NCBI GenBank assembly: GCA_026225415.1
Contig: JAMFSS010000001.1
Coordinates: 186,001 to 250,000 of the forward strand
DNA length: 64,000 nucleotides
Direction of reading: 5' to 3'
Source of the DNA: Alphaproteobacteria bacterium
Lineage (GTDB): Bacteria > Pseudomonadota > Alphaproteobacteria > UBA9219
The notes beneath the pieces were generated by a model that saw nothing but the letters and a program-made list of their open reading frames with translations, searched no databases and had not been told where the DNA came from. Below, in pieces: positions 36,699 to 48,569 of this stretch (its first letter is position 1; the number at the start of each line of letters is the position of its first letter). Made by a program: the position numbers and the translations under genes.

Positions 36699-38264
36699 TT
36701 ATTCGGGTAATTGTACGGGTTTTCTGTTCATAACCGCAACAACATCCCGCCATCGCATAGCGCCCGTGATATGCAGCGACAAACCAAATGCCAAGGCCGA
36801 CAGGCCGATTATCACCGTTAACACGCCGATTTCCTGCGCATAATTGGTAAAGGGTATCAGGTTCCAGATAATCTTCATCAAAAAGCCCGTTACCACCGCC
36901 ATTACGGCGGCAGAAAAAACAATTTTCTTAATCCGTGCGGGTAATTTGTCATCGCCAATCGGCACGCCCTTGCGGCGCAAGGTGCGGTATAACAGGGCGG
37001 CATTCACGCTCACGGCAATACCGCTGGACAGCGCGATACCGACATGCCCCAACGGGCCGAGCAGCAACACGGATGCAATCACATTGACGGCAACAGAAAT
37101 CACGGCGATTTTCACAGGCGTTTTGGTGTCATGACGCGCAAAAAATCCGGCTGCGAAAACTTTCACCAATAAAAACCCGGGAATACCGATGGCATAGGCA
37201 CGCAACGCGCTAACGGTCGCCAGCGTATCTTCTTCGGTAAACGCGCCATGTTCAAACAAAATATGGATGATGGGACGCGCCAAAACGGCTAAGCCGATCA
37301 TCGCGGGCAAGCCCAGCACCAAACAAAATTCAATCGCGCGGCTGCTGTAATGCCGGGCTTTGTCTTCCGCGCCCGCCACAATATGGCGTGACAGCAAAGG
37401 CAGCAAGGTCGTCGCAATCGCAATGCCGACAATACCAAGCGGCAATTGGTTCAACCGGTCGGCGTAATTCAAATGCGACACGGCACCGGTTGGCAACCGC
37501 GACGCAAGGCTGGTCGATATCAACAAATTTAATTGATAAACCCCCGCGCCAATCGCGCCGGGGCCAATGCGGTGAAACAAACGCTTGCTGGCTGCGCTCA
37601 GATGCGGGCGCAAAATGGGAATAGCCGCGCGGGCGCGGTAACAACTTACCGCCAGCCACAAACATTGCACCACACCGGAAACGGTGACCGACCACGCCAG
37701 CGTATAACCAACATCCCAGCCAAAGAAATGCGCCGCCAATAACCCGGCGATAAGCACGATGTTCAACGCAACCGGTGCCGCCGCGCCGGGGCCGAATTTG
37801 CCGCGCGCATTCAAAACGCCGGTTTGCAAAGCGGTCACAGAAATCAATGCCAGATAGGGAAAGGTAATCGTGCCGAAATCCACCGCCAACTTGTATTTCT
37901 GTGGATCGCTTTCAAACCCCGGCGCAAGCACCAACATCACTTGCGGCATGAACATCATCACCACAACGGAAAATGGCACCAGCATCGCGAGCAACAACAT
38001 CAATGCCTGTCCGGCGAATTGTTGTGCGGCTTCTGCCCCGTGTTTTTCCTGTTCGGAAGTATAAAGGGGAACAAAGGCCGCCGAAAACGCCCCTTCGGCA
38101 AACAGGCTGCGGAACAAATTCGGCAAACGTTGCGCCACAAAAAACGCATCGGCCACGGGACCCGCGCCCAGAAACACTGCGGTTAAAGAGTCGCGGATAA
38201 AACCGCCCACGCGGCTGACAATTGTCAGGCTGCTAACGGTAAAGAGCGAACGCGCGAAACTCAT
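36699..38264 (-). CDS. murJ: Lipid II flippase MurJ
   Basis: This 521-residue membrane protein of the MOP superfamily has about 14 helices and the MurJ motifs SRVGGFIRDSLTAVFLGAG, AFFVAQRLPNLFRSLFAEGA and FSAAFVPLY. It flips lipid II across the inner membrane for peptidoglycan synthesis. I chose the ATG at 38264 (MSFARSLFTV), overlapping the upstream stop by four bases; the frame to 38360 adds a Cys-rich stretch that is not MurJ-like. Confidence 0.95.
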   Translation of the reverse strand: MSFARSLFTVSSLTIVSRVGGFIRDSLTAVFLGAGPVADAFFVAQRLPNLFRSLFAEGAFSAAFVPLYTSEQEKHGAEAAQQFAGQALMLLLAMLVPFSVVVMMFMPQVMLVLAPGFESDPQKYKLAVDFGTITFPYLALISVTALQTGVLNARGKFGPGAAAPVALNIVLIAGLLAAHFFGWDVGYTLAWSVTVSGVVQCLWLAVSCYRARAAIPILRPHLSAASKRLFHRIGPGAIGAGVYQLNLLISTSLASRLPTGAVSHLNYADRLNQLPLGIVGIAIATTLLPLLSRHIVAGAEDKARHYSSRAIEFCLVLGLPAMIGLAVLARPIIHILFEHGAFTEEDTLATVSALRAYAIGIPGFLLVKVFAAGFFARHDTKTPVKIAVISVAVNVIASVLLLGPLGHVGIALSSGIAVSVNAALLYRTLRRKGVPIGDDKLPARIKKIVFSAAVMAVVTGFLMKIIWNLIPFTNYAQEIGVLTVIIGLSALAFGLSLHITGAMRWRDVVAVMNRKPVQLPE

Positions 38265-41974: not shown

Positions 41975-43495
41975 TTACGTCTTTTTTCCAGTCTCTTCCG
42001 CTTGCTTCCGCCAATGAACGGCGGTGACCAGATGAATTTTGCCGGCATTGTCTGCCGCGCGCAACAAGGCGGCAAAACTTTGTCTCGTCGTTTCGGGGAT
42101 GACCGTTTCATCCGGTTGCGACAGGGCTTCGCGCAACAGGGCAAAGCTCCATTGCTCGGGGCCATGTTCCAAAAATTTCCACAAAACATTGTTATAGGGA
42201 GCGGGAAAATTGTCGGGATTAAAGGCCTCGGCGCGAACCGGATTCGACAAAGTGATTTCACCGTGAAGGACGTTATGCATGAAAATCAGAAAGGAGAGAA
42301 AAAGATCATAAGGCCAGCCCCCGTCTTTTTTGGCGCGCGAAATGGCGCCGTAATCGATAACAACGGCGCGGCCATCCGGTTCGACAAGAATGTTCCATGG
42401 GCGCAGATCATCGTGGAACAAAGCTGCGCTCTCTAATACCGTCAACTGTGACAGGACATCGCTGATAATAGTCCCGGCATTATAATTCTGTTTCTGTCGA
42501 ATCTTGTCGAACAGCAAATCCCCCTCAATGAATGCGCGTGCCAACCACGCTTCGCGCTGATGCCTCCCATACAAAAAAAGCGGGGGCGTTTCAAAACCGG
42601 CAGGCGGTGCGGACAAAAAAGAGGATTCGTTGATATGCTCGCGCAAATTGGCTTCATGATGGTCGGCATCATCCAATGTAAACAATTTGACGATGTGACC
42701 CTGGCCGAAAAAGTAACGGCGCGTGCCGTTATTCGTACCTTCTGTAAATTCATACGACCCTATTTTCCACGCATGGAAAGCCTCTGCCTGTCCATTGAGA
42801 AACCAGTAATGATTGCTGGCGACATAAAGCGGTCGGCCTGTATCCGACAAATGCGATTTATGACGGGCGAACTCATGCACAAAAGCATAGCCGGACAAAA
42901 GCTGTCGCGGATTTTGTGGCTGCGCAGCAGCCCAATAAAGCGGTTCGCTTGCCAACGCCATCTCAAAAACCGCCGCCGTGGTTTTAACGGCCAGAAGCGC
43001 GAGAACTTTTTGCACAGCGTCTATGCCGCGGTGATAGACCATGTGATGGAAAAGGCTGAACCCCAGCACCAGATCGAAATATCCCGCCGCCATCTGGACA
43101 ATTTTTTCTTCGGCCATCCCAGTTTCAAAAATTACTTCGCACACCGGATGCTCGGCGGCCAGCGCTTTGCACAACACGATATTGGCGTCGAGAAAATCGA
43201 CCCCCACCACTTTGGCGCCTTTTTGCGCGAGGCTCAGGCTGAAATATCCCTGGGCACAGCCGAGATCGAGCACGCGCAAAGGCCGCCCCAGCTTTGCCTG
43301 TAAGGGCTCATAAATTTGCATGATCGATTCCAGCCGATCCTCGCAACTGCGCAAGGCCTGGGAAGAAAATTCGGGATGCGCGAATATCGGTTGATAGATT
43401 TCAGGGAGAGCCATTACTTTTTGCGCAAGGGAATCTGCGGCGTGGGCGGCTCGCGCATCGCTGCATTCTGACATCTGGCTTGCCTCGTGGGACAA
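41975..43495 (-). CDS. WbdD-like methyltransferase-kinase fusion
   Basis: This 506-residue protein joins two domains. The N-terminal one is a class I SAM methyltransferase, with VLDLGCAQGYFSLSLA at 75-90, acidic VVGVDFLD, and LVLGFSLFHH. The C-terminal one is a kinase-like fold with catalytic loop HDDLRPWN (His361, Asp363, Asn368) and VVIDYGAIS (Asp381), preceded by a phosphate-binding-like region. This order is that of WbdD, which caps O-antigen polymannose with methyl-phosphate and so fixes chain length. E. coli WbdD also has a C-terminal coiled-coil ruler; here the protein ends soon after the kinase. No O-antigen genes adjoin it. Confidence 0.75.
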   Translation of the reverse strand: MSHEASQMSECSDARAAHAADSLAQKVMALPEIYQPIFAHPEFSSQALRSCEDRLESIMQIYEPLQAKLGRPLRVLDLGCAQGYFSLSLAQKGAKVVGVDFLDANIVLCKALAAEHPVCEVIFETGMAEEKIVQMAAGYFDLVLGFSLFHHMVYHRGIDAVQKVLALLAVKTTAAVFEMALASEPLYWAAAQPQNPRQLLSGYAFVHEFARHKSHLSDTGRPLYVASNHYWFLNGQAEAFHAWKIGSYEFTEGTNNGTRRYFFGQGHIVKLFTLDDADHHEANLREHINESSFLSAPPAGFETPPLFLYGRHQREAWLARAFIEGDLLFDKIRQKQNYNAGTIISDVLSQLTVLESAALFHDDLRPWNILVEPDGRAVVIDYGAISRAKKDGGWPYDLFLSFLIFMHNVLHGEITLSNPVRAEAFNPDNFPAPYNNVLWKFLEHGPEQWSFALLREALSQPDETVIPETTRQSFAALLRAADNAGKIHLVTAVHWRKQAEETGKKT

Positions 43496-43653: not shown

Positions 43654-43730
43654 TGGTGCGCCCTAGGGGATTCGAACCACTGACCTGCCGCTTAGAAGGC
43701 GGCTGCTCTATCCAACTGAGCTAAGGGCGC
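43654..43730 (-). tRNA. tRNA-Arg (anticodon TCT)
   Basis: A complete 77-base cloverleaf: acceptor GCGCCCT/AGGGCGC, D-arm GCTC...GAGC, anticodon stem GCCGC/GCGGC with loop CTTCTAA (anticodon TCT), T-arm with TTCGAAT, discriminator A and encoded CCA. It reads AGA and AGG codons. Confidence 0.97.
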
Positions 43731-43797: not shown

Positions 43798-44388
43798 TTA
43801 ACGGGAAACGTTGTATTTTTCGGCTTTGTCCCACAGGCTTTGCCAATCGGCGGCATAGGCGGCGGCCAGTTTCGGGTCGTCCCATAAAACAATGACATTT
43901 TCCGAATTATGCTGTTCGGCGGCAAAAGTATAGTTGAAAGAGCCTGTTTCGACGCTCTTGCCATCAATGACCATATATTTGTCATGCTGTAATGTGTGGA
44001 CGATATCGACGCGAACGGGGATGTTTTGTGCAGCCATCCAACCCACGGCTGAATGTTCGTCTTTGCGCAGCTGGTCATGGTCGATGACGATTTCCACATC
44101 AATGCCTGCGCGATGCGCATCGGCCAGGGCATCGGCAATGGGGCGCGAGGTAAAGGAATAGGCCGCCATTTTGATATCATGCCTGGCCGCCCGTATCGCC
44201 TTCACAACCAATTCCGTCGCCCCGCCATCCGGCGAAAAAGCAATTTCAACAGAGGCCGGCGGAGGGAGTGTTTGCCCCCCGCCACTGTGAAGACTGGTCA
44301 TTGTCTGTTGAAACAGGGAGGGGGAGGCAAAAGATGATGTGGACACAAGTAATAATACTGCGGCGGAAAAGGCTCGTGCGGTATGCAT
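43798..44388 (-). CDS. Exported phospholipase-D-family (Nuc-like) protein
   Basis: This 196-residue protein has a signal peptide (about 1-21) and one PLD domain with the HKD motif HDKYMVIDGKSVETGSFNYT (His135, Lys137, Asp142). A single HKD domain is the Nuc/PLD6 layout; such proteins act as dimers on DNA or phospholipid. Its export suggests a periplasmic or secreted nuclease or phospholipase. It overlaps the stop of the upstream GNAT-like gene by one base (TGATG), so it is part of a three-gene transcript with an XRE-type regulator. Confidence 0.85.
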   Translation of the reverse strand: MHTARAFSAAVLLLVSTSSFASPSLFQQTMTSLHSGGGQTLPPPASVEIAFSPDGGATELVVKAIRAARHDIKMAAYSFTSRPIADALADAHRAGIDVEIVIDHDQLRKDEHSAVGWMAAQNIPVRVDIVHTLQHDKYMVIDGKSVETGSFNYTFAAEQHNSENVIVLWDDPKLAAAYAADWQSLWDKAEKYNVSR

Positions 44389-45293
44389 CAGCCAGCCGCC
44401 GCCATAGGGGGCTGAGGAGATCTGCCAGTCTGATGGGGTCTCGAGCTGCTATGGCCATTCATGCACATGCCGTCTTTAAAGGTCATGGCATCTTTGAGGC
44501 GCCGAGCTTCTGACCATGACATATTGTGGGGTAGCTTTGTAAAATACCCCTTCTTCTGAACGATCTCGTTAAGCGTATCGCGCAATTCAAGGCCAGAAAA
44601 ATCTAACCCAATTCTTTCACCACGATGATTAGTTATGTATCCTGTTGACACTATATGGGAAAGACTCTTGGCGACGGCATAGAGGTTGCTGACGGGAGCG
44701 CGATAGAAGTTTTTATCGCGCGCAGTGTTTTCATCTCGAGTCGTATCCAAAAAGCTGTTCACCAATTCTTGTGCCGGTTTCATAAGCTCCCACTTCAGTG
44801 GTGATTTTGTAGATTCGGCGCCGGTTACATGATTGATTGTATTAGTCAGGTTAGTTTGAACATCTGCGACAAGGATATCAATCGGAAGTTCAGGTGAACC
44901 AGCCCTGTTGAAAGCCATAATCATGGGAACGCCAAAAAGCAGGACGTTCCAAATGCCGGGAGGCAGATCGTGGTCGTCTTTGCCGTGGTTCATTCTGAGT
45001 ACAGAGCCAAGTTCAACAACCTGACCGCTTTCTTTAACGTCGCCAATGCTGTTGGCAACACAGCCTATGTCCCGGCCTTGCGCAAGACTATACAGGGCGG
45101 AAGAGGCGACGATTGTGTCGTCTTCATCGCGAACGGTCAAAAACAATTTCTTACTAATCTGGCTTGCGATAACTTCTTCATCGCGCAGATACACGGCTTG
45201 CGTACGACGTTCCGTGTCGGCATAAAAGCTCATAACCTTCTCAAATTCTGAGGGTTCCGCGTATTTAAAAATAAATTGCTGGCTTGGAATCAT
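44388..45293 (-). CDS. Probable GNAT-fold protein of unknown function
   Basis: This 301-residue protein has an N-terminal part resembling the GNAT acyltransferase fold: FKYAEPSEFEKVMSFYADTE, SKKLFLTVRDEDDTIVASSA, then VVELGSVLRMNHGKDD where the acetyl-CoA loop would be. The remaining two thirds match nothing I know, and the last 25 residues (HSSSRPHQTGRSPQPPMAAA) look disordered. It lies four bases after the XRE-type regulator and touches the PLD gene. AT-rich compared with neighbours. Acyltransferase activity is a guess from fold. Confidence 0.6.
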   Translation of the reverse strand: MIPSQQFIFKYAEPSEFEKVMSFYADTERRTQAVYLRDEEVIASQISKKLFLTVRDEDDTIVASSALYSLAQGRDIGCVANSIGDVKESGQVVELGSVLRMNHGKDDHDLPPGIWNVLLFGVPMIMAFNRAGSPELPIDILVADVQTNLTNTINHVTGAESTKSPLKWELMKPAQELVNSFLDTTRDENTARDKNFYRAPVSNLYAVAKSLSHIVSTGYITNHRGERIGLDFSGLELRDTLNEIVQKKGYFTKLPHNMSWSEARRLKDAMTFKDGMCMNGHSSSRPHQTGRSPQPPMAAAG

Positions 45294-45297
45294 TATT

Positions 45298-45984
45298 TTA
45301 CCTGCTTATCATTTCAAGTGGTTTTGCATTTTTCCACATAACATTAAATTGATCCCGGTAAGCTTTTGATACAAGTGTTGAAGCTATGACAACAATTTGT
45401 ACAGGCTTGTTCTCATCAAAAACCAGTATTCCTAATTTATCTGCATATACATAAAAAGGAACATTCCCCGCCAGCTCGCTAGACGACTGGCGGTACTCAC
45501 GATAACTGTTGCCTTGCTTCTCATCTTTGCTCAACGTGTGCGGTTTCTCATGCACAAGAATGCGCATCTTTAGTTCACTAATTTCATTCATTCTTTGAAT
45601 GTGGGTTTCAAAAAAATCACCTAAATGCATAGAAAAATAACGGTCATCAACATGGCCAATATAAATTGGCTTGTCCCCGCCATTTTGTGAGAACGGTTGT
45701 TTTGCTGCCTGATAAACATCATCCAGAAAACGTTTAAATCCATCAACGCCTTCATATTTCGTCACAGTGTCTTGGCTCCGCTTGACACCCTCATTCTCCG
45801 TAAACTCCACGCCATGCGTTCCAAAAGCGCGCACAATCGCATCGGCCGTTGTTTCTTGCGGACGGAAGGTGCCGTGTTCGATATTCTTGATCGTTTCCGG
45901 CGAAATGGATGCCGCTTTGGCCAGATCACTTCTGGTCCAATCAAGAAGGCCTCGTGCGGCTCGTAATTGTGCGGCGGTTATCAT
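45298..45984 (-). CDS. XRE-family regulator with TrmB-like sensor end
   Basis: This 228-residue protein has an N-terminal Cro/C1-type HTH (LRAARGLLDWTRSDLAKAAS, then SPETIKNIEHG; residues 6-55). Its C-terminal part (about 105-225) has FYVYADKLGILVFDENKPVQ and KAYRDQFNVMWKNAKPL, which resemble the phospholipase-D-fold sensor end of TrmB-type regulators (an IYGDK..I strand and a FexLWexAkP helix). An HTH of XRE type joined to such an end is unusual. It begins a three-gene transcript. A dyad lies 45-62 bases upstream. Confidence 0.75.
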   Translation of the reverse strand: MITAAQLRAARGLLDWTRSDLAKAASISPETIKNIEHGTFRPQETTADAIVRAFGTHGVEFTENEGVKRSQDTVTKYEGVDGFKRFLDDVYQAAKQPFSQNGGDKPIYIGHVDDRYFSMHLGDFFETHIQRMNEISELKMRILVHEKPHTLSKDEKQGNSYREYRQSSSELAGNVPFYVYADKLGILVFDENKPVQIVVIASTLVSKAYRDQFNVMWKNAKPLEMISR

Positions 45985-46028: not shown

Positions 46029-46046
46029 CAGGTATAGAGTTACCTG
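46029..46046 (-). promoter_or_regulatory. Dyad CAGGTA-N6-TACCTG upstream of the XRE gene
   Basis: A perfect 6-6-6 inverted repeat (CAGGTATAGAGTTACCTG), with further partial symmetry outside (TAAAT.../...GTTAA), lies 45 bases before the regulator's ATG. XRE dimers bind such dyads; autoregulation is a fair inference. Confidence 0.6.
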
Positions 46047-46283
46047 TTAAAGGGGGTAATAAGCAAGCCCCCGATTAGTTTCGCCCCAAATTTGCGGCTT
46101 TTTTCAATTCACTAAGTCAACTAATAGTTATCAATCTTTTTCGCTGTGTTAAGGGTTCTTAAACCATAAATTGTTTTCATGCAACTATTATTTGGTATGT
46201 TGTTGCCTCTTATTGGCATGTATAATCAAACTATAGAAACACACGGCTTATTTGACGGCATTTTTTAAAAAAAGAGATTTTAC

Positions 46284-46613
46284 ATGACCCCGGTTTACAC
46301 GCAAAAAGATACGCAAGGCAAAGGCACAACCGGCGCGGGTGATAATATCCTGTCCAAAGAAACCTTGCTCCCCCAAAAATGGATGAGCGACATCCGCATA
46401 CCCGAATCGGCCAAACGCCAACCATTGATCAACGCCAACCAGCAAACATCGATCAACGCGATGATTTTGTATATCTCGCATAAATCGGGGCAGAGCGAAT
46501 TCCGCATCGAACGTCGTCTGGCGGATCATTTCCATGTCCCCAATGCAACGCTTTTGCAGGCCAGCGATTTTGACAACGCCATTCGTTATCTGGCGGATAT
46601 GATCGCGGCCTGA
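46284..46613 (+). CDS. Protein of unknown function
   Basis: This 109-residue soluble protein shows no signal peptide, membrane helix or known motif. The second half (INAMILYISHKSGQSEFRIE, then RRLADHFHVPNATLLQASDF) is probably helical and may be a small fold of its own. It is the first of two plus-strand genes (33 bases to the next). The 299 bases upstream are AT-rich and hold several palindromes but no gene. Confidence 0.62.
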   Translation: MTPVYTQKDTQGKGTTGAGDNILSKETLLPQKWMSDIRIPESAKRQPLINANQQTSINAMILYISHKSGQSEFRIERRLADHFHVPNATLLQASDFDNAIRYLADMIAA

Positions 46614-46645: not shown

Positions 46646-47089
46646 ATGACCAGCCAAAATTTTTTTACAGTATTTGTTTTCTTCGCGGTTCTTTGTGTGG
46701 GGGACGCGCGCGCCGATTTCACGGTTAATGACGGCGCCCCTGCAAGCACATCGATAGACAACGATAAATTCAATCACATCCTGCCGCCGGCGCAAATTTA
46801 TAACACGAATCCGCCCATTGCCCAGCCGCCACAAATCTACGACACCCATGTGCCCGAAGTCCCGCATGTGACAGAACAACCCTATGTGCCCGAACTCCCC
46901 CAGGCGCCTATCGCGCAACCCGCAATCATTGCGCAACCGGCGCAAAGATTTTACCAATCCACCCATCGTCCAACCGGCGCAACAACCGCCGCCCGCCATC
47001 GTGGCGCAACCGGCGCGTACTTTTATCCCACAGCCAACGATAGCACAGCCCGCGCAAACTTTCCGCCCTTGGTAAAAACCTACCCATAA
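46646..47089 (+). CDS. Exported Pro/Gln-rich AQPA-repeat protein, frameshifted
   Basis: The frame has a signal peptide (about 1-23, ending ARA) and a Pro/Gln-rich body with VPELPQAPIAQPA and IIAQPAQRF. At about 46949-46952 (four T) the repeat pattern jumps to the +1 frame: that frame continues TNPPIVQPAQQPPP, AIVAQPARTFIPQP and TIAQPAQTFRPW to TAA at 47075, while the original frame reads on without repeats to 47089. One extra T would explain this, either a real frameshift or a sequence error. The intact protein would be a short secreted repeat protein of unknown role. Confidence 0.65.
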   Translation: MTSQNFFTVFVFFAVLCVGDARADFTVNDGAPASTSIDNDKFNHILPPAQIYNTNPPIAQPPQIYDTHVPEVPHVTEQPYVPELPQAPIAQPAIIAQPAQRFYQSTHRPTGATTAARHRGATGAYFYPTANDSTARANFPPLVKTYP

Positions 47090-47297: not shown

Positions 47298-48569
47298 TTA
47301 GCGGATATACACATGCACTTCCGGCGATTGCGCCGTTTGCGCCTGTGTGCTGGCAATTGTAATGCGCGAAGGCGTCAAGCCCATCTGGATCAATGAACGC
47401 TTCACTTCTTCCGCGTTGCTCTTGGCGGTTTGTTCTTCATCCGCCAAAGCTGCCGGATCGCCGCTGGAAGGCGACACCGCTACGATCGAAAACTGTGCAT
47501 TGGGGCGACGTTCAACCGCAGTGCCAACCGCTTGTGAAAGCTGTTGCTGATAATCGACATTGGGTTGGTTGTAACGGATAAGAACCAGCAAACGACCAAC
47601 CGAAGGCGCAATGCCAACATTGGAATTACGTGTGGCAATACCCGTAGAGGCATAGCCGCCATTTTCACGCATCAATTCACGTGGTGACATCGGCTCGGGT
47701 CCTAACGCGCCTTGCGTCACGGCCATCGAAGGCGATGCCTGCGGGGCATAGGATGTTGGTCCCGGCACACTTACAACAGGTGATGGGTTCACAATAACCG
47801 GACGGTTGGCAAGGCTGCTGCCCAGCAATTCGCCGCGGCTGATGGCAAACGCCAAAGCCTGAATGTTCGAACGTTCGGTCGTCAGATAGGTCGATTGACG
47901 TTGAATATCGGCGGTCGTCTGATTGCGCAGATAATCCAGCTGAACCACCAAACGGCTCACTTCGTCGCGCAACAATTTCAATTGGTCATGATCTTCATCA
48001 ACCGCGCCCGACAATTCAAATGCCGCCTGTACCGAATCCAGAAGATAGGAAGCCACAGACGCATCGGCATCAACGGCGACTTGCAACGAGTTCAGCTTGT
48101 TCAGCGAGGATGTTACTTCGCCAAGGCTGGCATCGGCTTCTTCCCATTGGCGCAACAGAATAGGGTTGCCCTTGGTTGTGCCGTTTTGCAAACGGGCGGT
48201 GATGGCCGCAACCGTGCTGTGATATTGAACCGCGCCCGCAGCACCGCTGGTACGCAGGATGGCGAATTCGTTGGAGTTCAAATTGACAGATGAGCGCAAA
48301 CGCAAAACTTCATCACGCAAAGCCGAAGCGCGGTTGCCGACAACGGTGCCGCTGGATGGGCCGAAATTTGCCAAGCCATCTGTGCCGTTGCTGGATGTCG
48401 CCATCGCCAGTGAAGGGTCAACCATTGCCGGTGTTGCGGGCGGTGCAGATTCGCTGATGGTTTGTGTATCATCATCGGCAAAAGCAGGGGCGGCGGCGAT
48501 AAGCAACGCCGCGAAAGCGGTCAGGAACAATTTTGACATTTTTACGTCTTGCATCAGCATCTTGGGCAT
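47298..48569 (-). CDS. Exported protein, coiled coil plus OmpA-like C-terminal end
   Basis: This 423-residue protein has a signal peptide from MSKLFLTAFAALLIAAAPAF (about 11-30), a helical region at about 70-210 (QLKLLRDEVSRLVVQLDYLR), a Pro/Ser-rich linker (about 235-290), and a C-terminal domain with LLVLIRYNQPNVDYQQQLSQ and NAEEVKRSLIQMGLTPSRIT, like the end of OmpA/MotB-type or related periplasmic domains (the NA..VK..L...G....RI pattern). It may link an envelope structure to peptidoglycan; function unknown. AAAGGTG precedes the ATG at 48569; the ATG at 48539 would also give a signal peptide. Confidence 0.72.
   Translation of the reverse strand: MPKMLMQDVKMSKLFLTAFAALLIAAAPAFADDDTQTISESAPPATPAMVDPSLAMATSSNGTDGLANFGPSSGTVVGNRASALRDEVLRLRSSVNLNSNEFAILRTSGAAGAVQYHSTVAAITARLQNGTTKGNPILLRQWEEADASLGEVTSSLNKLNSLQVAVDADASVASYLLDSVQAAFELSGAVDEDHDQLKLLRDEVSRLVVQLDYLRNQTTADIQRQSTYLTTERSNIQALAFAISRGELLGSSLANRPVIVNPSPVVSVPGPTSYAPQASPSMAVTQGALGPEPMSPRELMRENGGYASTGIATRNSNVGIAPSVGRLLVLIRYNQPNVDYQQQLSQAVGTAVERRPNAQFSIVAVSPSSGDPAALADEEQTAKSNAEEVKRSLIQMGLTPSRITIASTQAQTAQSPEVHVYIR

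Follow-up and report, generated by a model that had tools for sequence, protein, structure and literature searches.

A candidate autoregulated cassette pairing an XRE/TrmB-type regulator with variable metabolic enzymes in Alphaproteobacteria

The window, i.e. the whole 64,000-nucleotide stretch of DNA that was analysed, encodes three tightly packed genes on the minus strand and a small gene facing them. We call the regulator REG, the adjoining enzyme gene X and the divergent small protein SM. The locus and its flanks comprise the following features.

43798..44388, minus strand: PLD protein (196 aa), a predicted exported Nuc-like single-HKD nuclease; flank, not core
44388..45293, minus strand: X, the enzyme gene of the cassette, 301 aa, highly diverged and very probably of GNAT fold
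45298..45984, minus strand: REG (228 aa), an XRE HTH (residues 1-66) and a degenerate PLD-fold domain of TrmB/TrmBL2 type (residues 70-225)
46031..46044: candidate operator for REG in its own promoter region, GGTATAGAGTTACC (GGTA-N6-TACC); its end is 47 bases ahead of the start codon of REG
46063..46082, minus strand: conserved element GAAA(G/C)TAATC..GCTTGC, which lies upstream of the REG operator and probably belongs to the promoter of REG
46194..46218: candidate operator in the promoter region of SM, GGTA-N6-TGCC-N7-GGCA, kept in eight species
46221..46226, plus strand: TATAAT, from its sequence the likely -10 box of SM, directly after the 46194-46218 site
46284..46613, plus strand: SM, a 109-aa protein divergent to REG, whose C-terminal core is conserved and weakly resembles phage anti-repressors/ORF6C
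46646..47089, plus strand: flank, a Pro-rich protein with a signal-peptide-like N-terminus, 3' of SM
47298..48569, minus strand: flank, an OmpA-like protein, syntenic within the genus

The open reading frame coordinates agree with the spacing given in the first-pass annotation of this DNA, with four bases between REG and X and a one-base overlap between X and the PLD gene (TGATG), which supports the operon-like arrangement proposed there. X and the nuclease probably share a transcript in the genus of the window. The first two genes had also been called AT-rich, which is clear for REG (GC content of 0.437) and less strong for the 301-aa gene (0.480), relative to the PLD gene (0.530) and the window (0.523). 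REG has a lower GC content than its own flanks in 69 of 79 comparable loci (means of 0.479 vs 0.526). Hence, low GC is a trait of the regulator family, not of this locus alone. The first-pass annotation mentions neither the SM gene (46284-46613) nor the conserved sites between SM and REG, nor that relatives differ in their middle gene. Exported Pro-rich proteins similar to that at 46646-47089 occupy the corresponding place in several relatives. At the other end, a tRNA-Arg gene (43654-43730) lies beyond the PLD gene, away from the cassette boundary, and the idea of a tRNA-linked island was dropped. Positions 41975-43474 (minus strand) encode a protein of 499-506 aa in which a class I methyltransferase domain is combined with a kinase-like one.

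The PLD protein matches PLDc_2 (E 2.7e-23), has a single HxKx4D motif (HDKYMVID at residue 135) and a signal-peptide-like N-terminus, all in line with its first description as an exported HKD/PLD protein. Like the single-HKD nucleases Nuc and NucT, it has the motif, appears to be exported and is matched by NucT models (E 3e-13), but these matches fall below the NCBIfam cut-offs for NucT and the protein is a flank outside the cassette. We class it, on these sequence features, as a predicted exported Nuc-like HKD nuclease. A PADLOC search with the three genes returned weak matches of this protein to DrmC and DpdK. We set DISARM/Dpd defence aside, since these matches come from the common PLD domain and Pfam scans of neighbouring genes revealed neither a helicase nor another gene of DISARM/Dpd type.

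The order SM <-> REG - X - PLD is common to six species of the genus, where the locus mostly adjoins the OmpA-like gene and, on contigs that extend far enough, also RNase R and TopA. Protein identities within the genus are 44-73% for REG, 53-67% for PLD, 68-85% for the OmpA-like protein and 68-81% for RNase R; those of X are 18-28%, save one pair at 49%. Relatives of the window's 301-aa protein occupy the X slot in the genomes G009 and G001 (BLASTP E 5e-7; profile E 8.5e-6) and perhaps in G006. In G007 the slot contains a D-glutamate cyclase and a gene resembling methyltransferases, and in G005 a protein that is unrelated but looks like a GNAT.

The nuclease is found behind REG in this genus only (the six species), most REG loci lack it, and in three genomes (G003, G004 and G018) it stands without a REG next to it. 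G003, a congener and a single case, has adjacent OmpA-like, Pro-rich and PLD genes with no cassette between the last two (46% identity for the OmpA-like protein, 42% for PLD). This locus suggests that SM-REG-X was acquired or lost as one unit and that the nuclease is a resident flank. The first-pass annotation had instead proposed that regulator, acyltransferase and secreted nuclease form one system for attack, competition or membrane sensing. The tight three-gene spacing and the REG-X-PLD order in six species fit this proposal, but the absence of PLD from REG loci outside the genus, its presence without REG in three genomes and its position next to the Pro-rich gene in the cassette-free locus make it very improbable. 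The co-occurrence survey suggested with that proposal splits the trio: the REG-enzyme pairing recurs very widely, and PLD follows REG in this genus only. The unit of the cassette is SM-REG-enzyme, not regulator-GNAT-nuclease.

The 301-aa protein has no match in Pfam, NCBIfam or PADLOC. Single-sequence searches of 58 relatives, plasmids and viral contigs retrieved no homologues, and a five-row profile added this locus in four congeneric genomes and nothing else. PDB sequence searches with this profile and with SM gave chance-like matches only. The predicted structure, built from five sequences, is poor (pLDDT 46). All 50 PDB matches listed by Foldseek for this low-confidence model are GNAT folds (best E 3.4e-3), a list that we used for its unanimity only. 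The model indicates that X is very probably a diverged GNAT. The earlier description of a GNAT-like protein and possible acyltransferase is thus retained as likely for the fold, and finds no family match by sequence.

REG has an N-terminal XRE HTH (Pfam HTH_3, E 1e-9). Its structure, which the first-pass annotation had proposed to predict, was modelled with AlphaFold2 from 67 homologues (pLDDT 92.6). In structure comparisons, residues 1-71 fit the controller protein C.Kpn2I (Z 13.0), and residues 70-225 fit the PLD fold (TrmBL2, Z 12.2; NucT, Z 12.1; TrmB, Z 11.1), with an rmsd of 3.1 over 135 residues for TrmBL2 and 135 aligned residues for TrmB. TrmBL2 is also the best Foldseek match (E 5e-7). 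The PLD-fold domain has no HxKx4D motif and is catalytically dead. No Pfam TrmB model, including PF11495, matches the REG sequence, and the TrmB-type winged HTH (PF01978) is not found at its N-terminus, where the HTH is of XRE type. The motif YEGVDGFK and the REG-type C-terminal domain also occur in TrmB-type proteins of CPR bacteria (Gracilibacteria, Peregrinibacteria, Peribacter), after an N-terminal domain other than that of REG. The scan of genome contigs used one sequence as query, since the full REG alignment is without conserved stretches. DUF6879 weakly matches the C-terminal domains of three REGs (E 0.032).

The Pfam match, the predicted structure and the CPR proteins sharing the motif thus confirm the mix of an XRE HTH with a TrmB-like end noted in the first pass. 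Its interpretation as a sugar sensor does not hold. The alignment with TrmB spans chain residues 106-243 only and REG stops where TrmB residue 243 aligns. Hence, REG is missing the sugar-binding C-terminal subdomain of TrmB and TrmBL1, which TrmBL2 also lacks (PMC4877046). REG resembles the TrmB/TrmBL2 proteins of archaea and CPR bacteria in its C-terminal PLD-fold domain and in the motif common with the CPR proteins, but differs by its XRE instead of winged HTH, the missing sugar-binding subdomain and its partners, which are single metabolic enzymes and not sugar transporters. With the XRE controllers of restriction-modification systems of the C.Kpn2I type it shares the HTH fold (residues 1-71) and palindromic sites at its own promoter, but it has an extra 150-residue domain and no restriction enzyme or methyltransferase of these systems nearby.

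Within the order, REG is an expanded family of paralogues. Matches occur in all 33 genomes examined, with up to 42 per genome, part of these HTH-only. Outside the order, 13 of about 380 sampled alphaproteobacterial genomes have the REG C-terminal domain, joined to an XRE HTH in nearly all inspected loci. Among the 126 full-length REGs of the fetched loci, 80 have a same-strand gene at 150 bp or less (mostly -4 to +20), 52 have a divergent SM at less than 1 kb and 48 have both. About a third of REGs lack a nearby downstream enzyme, and some are in tandem. The genes behind REG encode EgtD-like (PF10017) and class I methyltransferases, GNATs, cyclodipeptide synthases, LPG_synthase_C proteins, a formyltransferase, an aldo-keto reductase, a 2-hydroxyacid dehydrogenase, D-glutamate cyclase, an aminotransferase and GCS2, and a good share have no Pfam match. 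EgtD-like PF10017 proteins make up 15 of 48 downstream genes in a first batch and 3 of 25 in a second. Since these loci were picked by REG, we made a reverse test starting from the enzyme genes. REG is directly upstream of 21 of the 25 PF10017 genes of the order (for two of these, the contig ends within REG and just its tail is present) and of four of its six cyclodipeptide synthases. Given some 2000 genes, of which roughly ten are REGs, such adjacency is beyond chance. When enzyme labels are placed on the REG tree, at least 36 changes are needed, for a minimum possible of 16 and a shuffled mean of 50, which suggests that REG-enzyme pairs are inherited for some time and later exchanged.

Several individual loci show this variety. 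The window's genome has a second cassette, SM-REG-EgtD-like (L025), and a second gene of the PF10017 EgtD family with no adjoining REG (L225, G000:C10:49810-50418). About ten REG paralogues are clustered in L051 (G023:C2:1-13000), several in tandem, with no enzymes in between. At L057 and L058 (G014:C30 and G015:C103), the REG and enzyme proteins are identical across genomes assigned to two genera, owing either to a recent transfer or to cross-binning between similar lake metagenomes. Cyclodipeptide-synthase-like proteins are found behind REG at L134:699-1430, L137:6888-7607, L139:4108-4851 and L167:6891-7628, and, judged by eye, in the distant genome L185. The L134 protein matches PDB 5ocd (E 1e-14). 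In the D(Y/F)xxEE segment, three of the four proteins from L134, L137, L139 and L167 have F where 5ocd has Y, which may be a catalytic tyrosine. A recurring protein of 340-380 aa with a TGR.G.W.Y / CWHPN motif, perhaps a member of PF09924, follows REG at L145:3951-4991, L146:1257-2393, L148:4084-5166 and L180:1938-2957, and also in a distant family. An enzyme-less second REG often comes after SM, as in four loci (L145, L146, L148 and L170) where an enzyme-REG1 pair faces SM-REG2 and REG2 is immediately 3' of SM.

The range of partners bears on what the pair might do. REG could be the XRE antitoxin of a type II toxin-antitoxin system with the GNAT-like protein as toxin, given that the two genes are tightly packed and that the REG HTH resembles those of antitoxins (Y4mF, HipB). 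However, the partners come from many metabolic enzyme families with no stable toxin family among them, partnerless REGs are common, the 228-aa REG includes a whole PLD-fold domain, and usual GNAT toxins are shorter than 301 aa; we therefore hold this to be highly unlikely. A role in detoxification or resistance, where REG would sense a foreign compound and induce the enzyme that modifies it (by acetyl-, methyl- or formyl-transfer, or by reduction), accounts for an apparently autoregulated repressor adjoining an enzyme that differs between species, and GNATs, methyltransferases and aldo-keto reductases are usual detoxifying enzymes. Yet cyclodipeptide synthases, D-glutamate cyclase, GCS2 and EgtD-like enzymes are biosynthetic and no known resistance family was matched, which leaves this role quite unlikely.

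Each cassette might also be a synthase-receptor pair, with the enzyme's product acting as ligand for the REG beside it, following a LuxI/LuxR-like logic with other chemistry and giving many private channels per genome. Acyl-homoserine-lactone synthases have GNAT-like folds, and cyclodipeptide synthases and others make diffusible molecules. As in LuxI/LuxR pairs, there is one sensor-like repressor beside a single small-molecule enzyme, sometimes of GNAT fold, with many paralogues per genome. No LuxR-type regulator or LuxI-type synthase (PF00765) was matched by Pfam in REG or in 73 downstream proteins, and the enzyme chemistry differs from one cassette to the next. Moreover, aldo-keto reductases and similar enzymes are atypical signal synthases, the TrmB-type domain of REG lacks the sugar-binding subdomain, and the TrmBL2 domain is not known as a ligand sensor (PMC4877046). 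Signalling of this kind is thus possible but unlikely. It ranks, with the detoxification, toxin-antitoxin and attack readings, below an autoregulated metabolite cassette.

The intergenic region between SM and REG points to such autoregulation. Among 37 intergenic regions between SM and REG, 9 contain GGTA-N6-TACC (shuffle sets give 0.03-0.08 each) and 8 contain TACC-N7-GGTA (0.07 when shuffled); the exact operator is thus found in only a quarter of these regions. An alignment of eight species reveals two conserved blocks, the REG promoter with GGTA-N6-TACC and the SM promoter. Self-regulation is frequent among XRE regulators, which often bind to palindromic sites as dimers (PMC12565409). With palindromes at the REG promoter, autorepression is the natural reading, we infer. 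Two further exact GGTA-N6-TACC sites occur in the window (37637-37650 and 47071-47084), for a total of three vs 0.12 expected, and may be further REG targets.

SM has a core of about 60 conserved residues at its C-terminal end. ORF6C weakly matches 6 of 38 members (best E 0.026). Anti-repressor PHROGs also match weakly (best E 0.0046), and these similarities offer a lead only that SM might be an anti-repressor of REG. When loci were selected by SM, 8 of 18 lacked a REG. The arrangement recalls phage repressor/anti-repressor pairs (Ant, ORF6C), in which an XRE repressor faces such a small protein, but the similarity of SM is weak and no phage genes were seen around the examined cassettes.

Taken together, we consider it fairly probable that SM-REG-X is an autoregulated cassette for a metabolite made by one enzyme. 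REG would act as a dimeric XRE repressor that keeps expression of the cassette low by binding GGTA/TACC inverted repeats in two promoters, its own and the divergent one of SM. Its degenerate PLD-fold domain, of TrmBL2 type, would serve in oligomerisation and receive the inducing signal, directly or via SM. The effector, either a small molecule at this domain or SM, would release REG from DNA. The adjoining enzyme, a GNAT-like acyltransferase in the window and a methyltransferase, cyclodipeptide synthase or others elsewhere, would then make or modify one small, often amino-acid-derived molecule. In the genus of the window, read-through may also raise the resident secreted nuclease.

No description of the pairing of XRE/TrmB-type REGs with enzymes was found in the literature searched (open-licence papers), and these cassettes apparently are a large undescribed family in bacteria. 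If our interpretation is right, the joining of an XRE HTH to a dead PLD domain of TrmB type would be a marker of metabolic one-enzyme loci, and tracing REG would find one-step pathways, among them those of EgtD-like methyltransferases and cyclodipeptide synthases, which may escape searches aimed at large biosynthetic clusters. The REG family, for which a candidate operator is defined, would also be a test bed for the re-wiring of one sensor family to many chemistries. It is conceivable, if doubtful, that this lineage of small-genome Alphaproteobacteria runs many chemical channels in parallel, in which numerous paralogous XRE/PLD-fold sensors would each have an interchangeable one-step metabolite synthase of their own, in some cases a cyclodipeptide synthase, together with a divergent small protein resembling anti-repressors, and enzymes would have passed from one sensor to another in the course of evolution.
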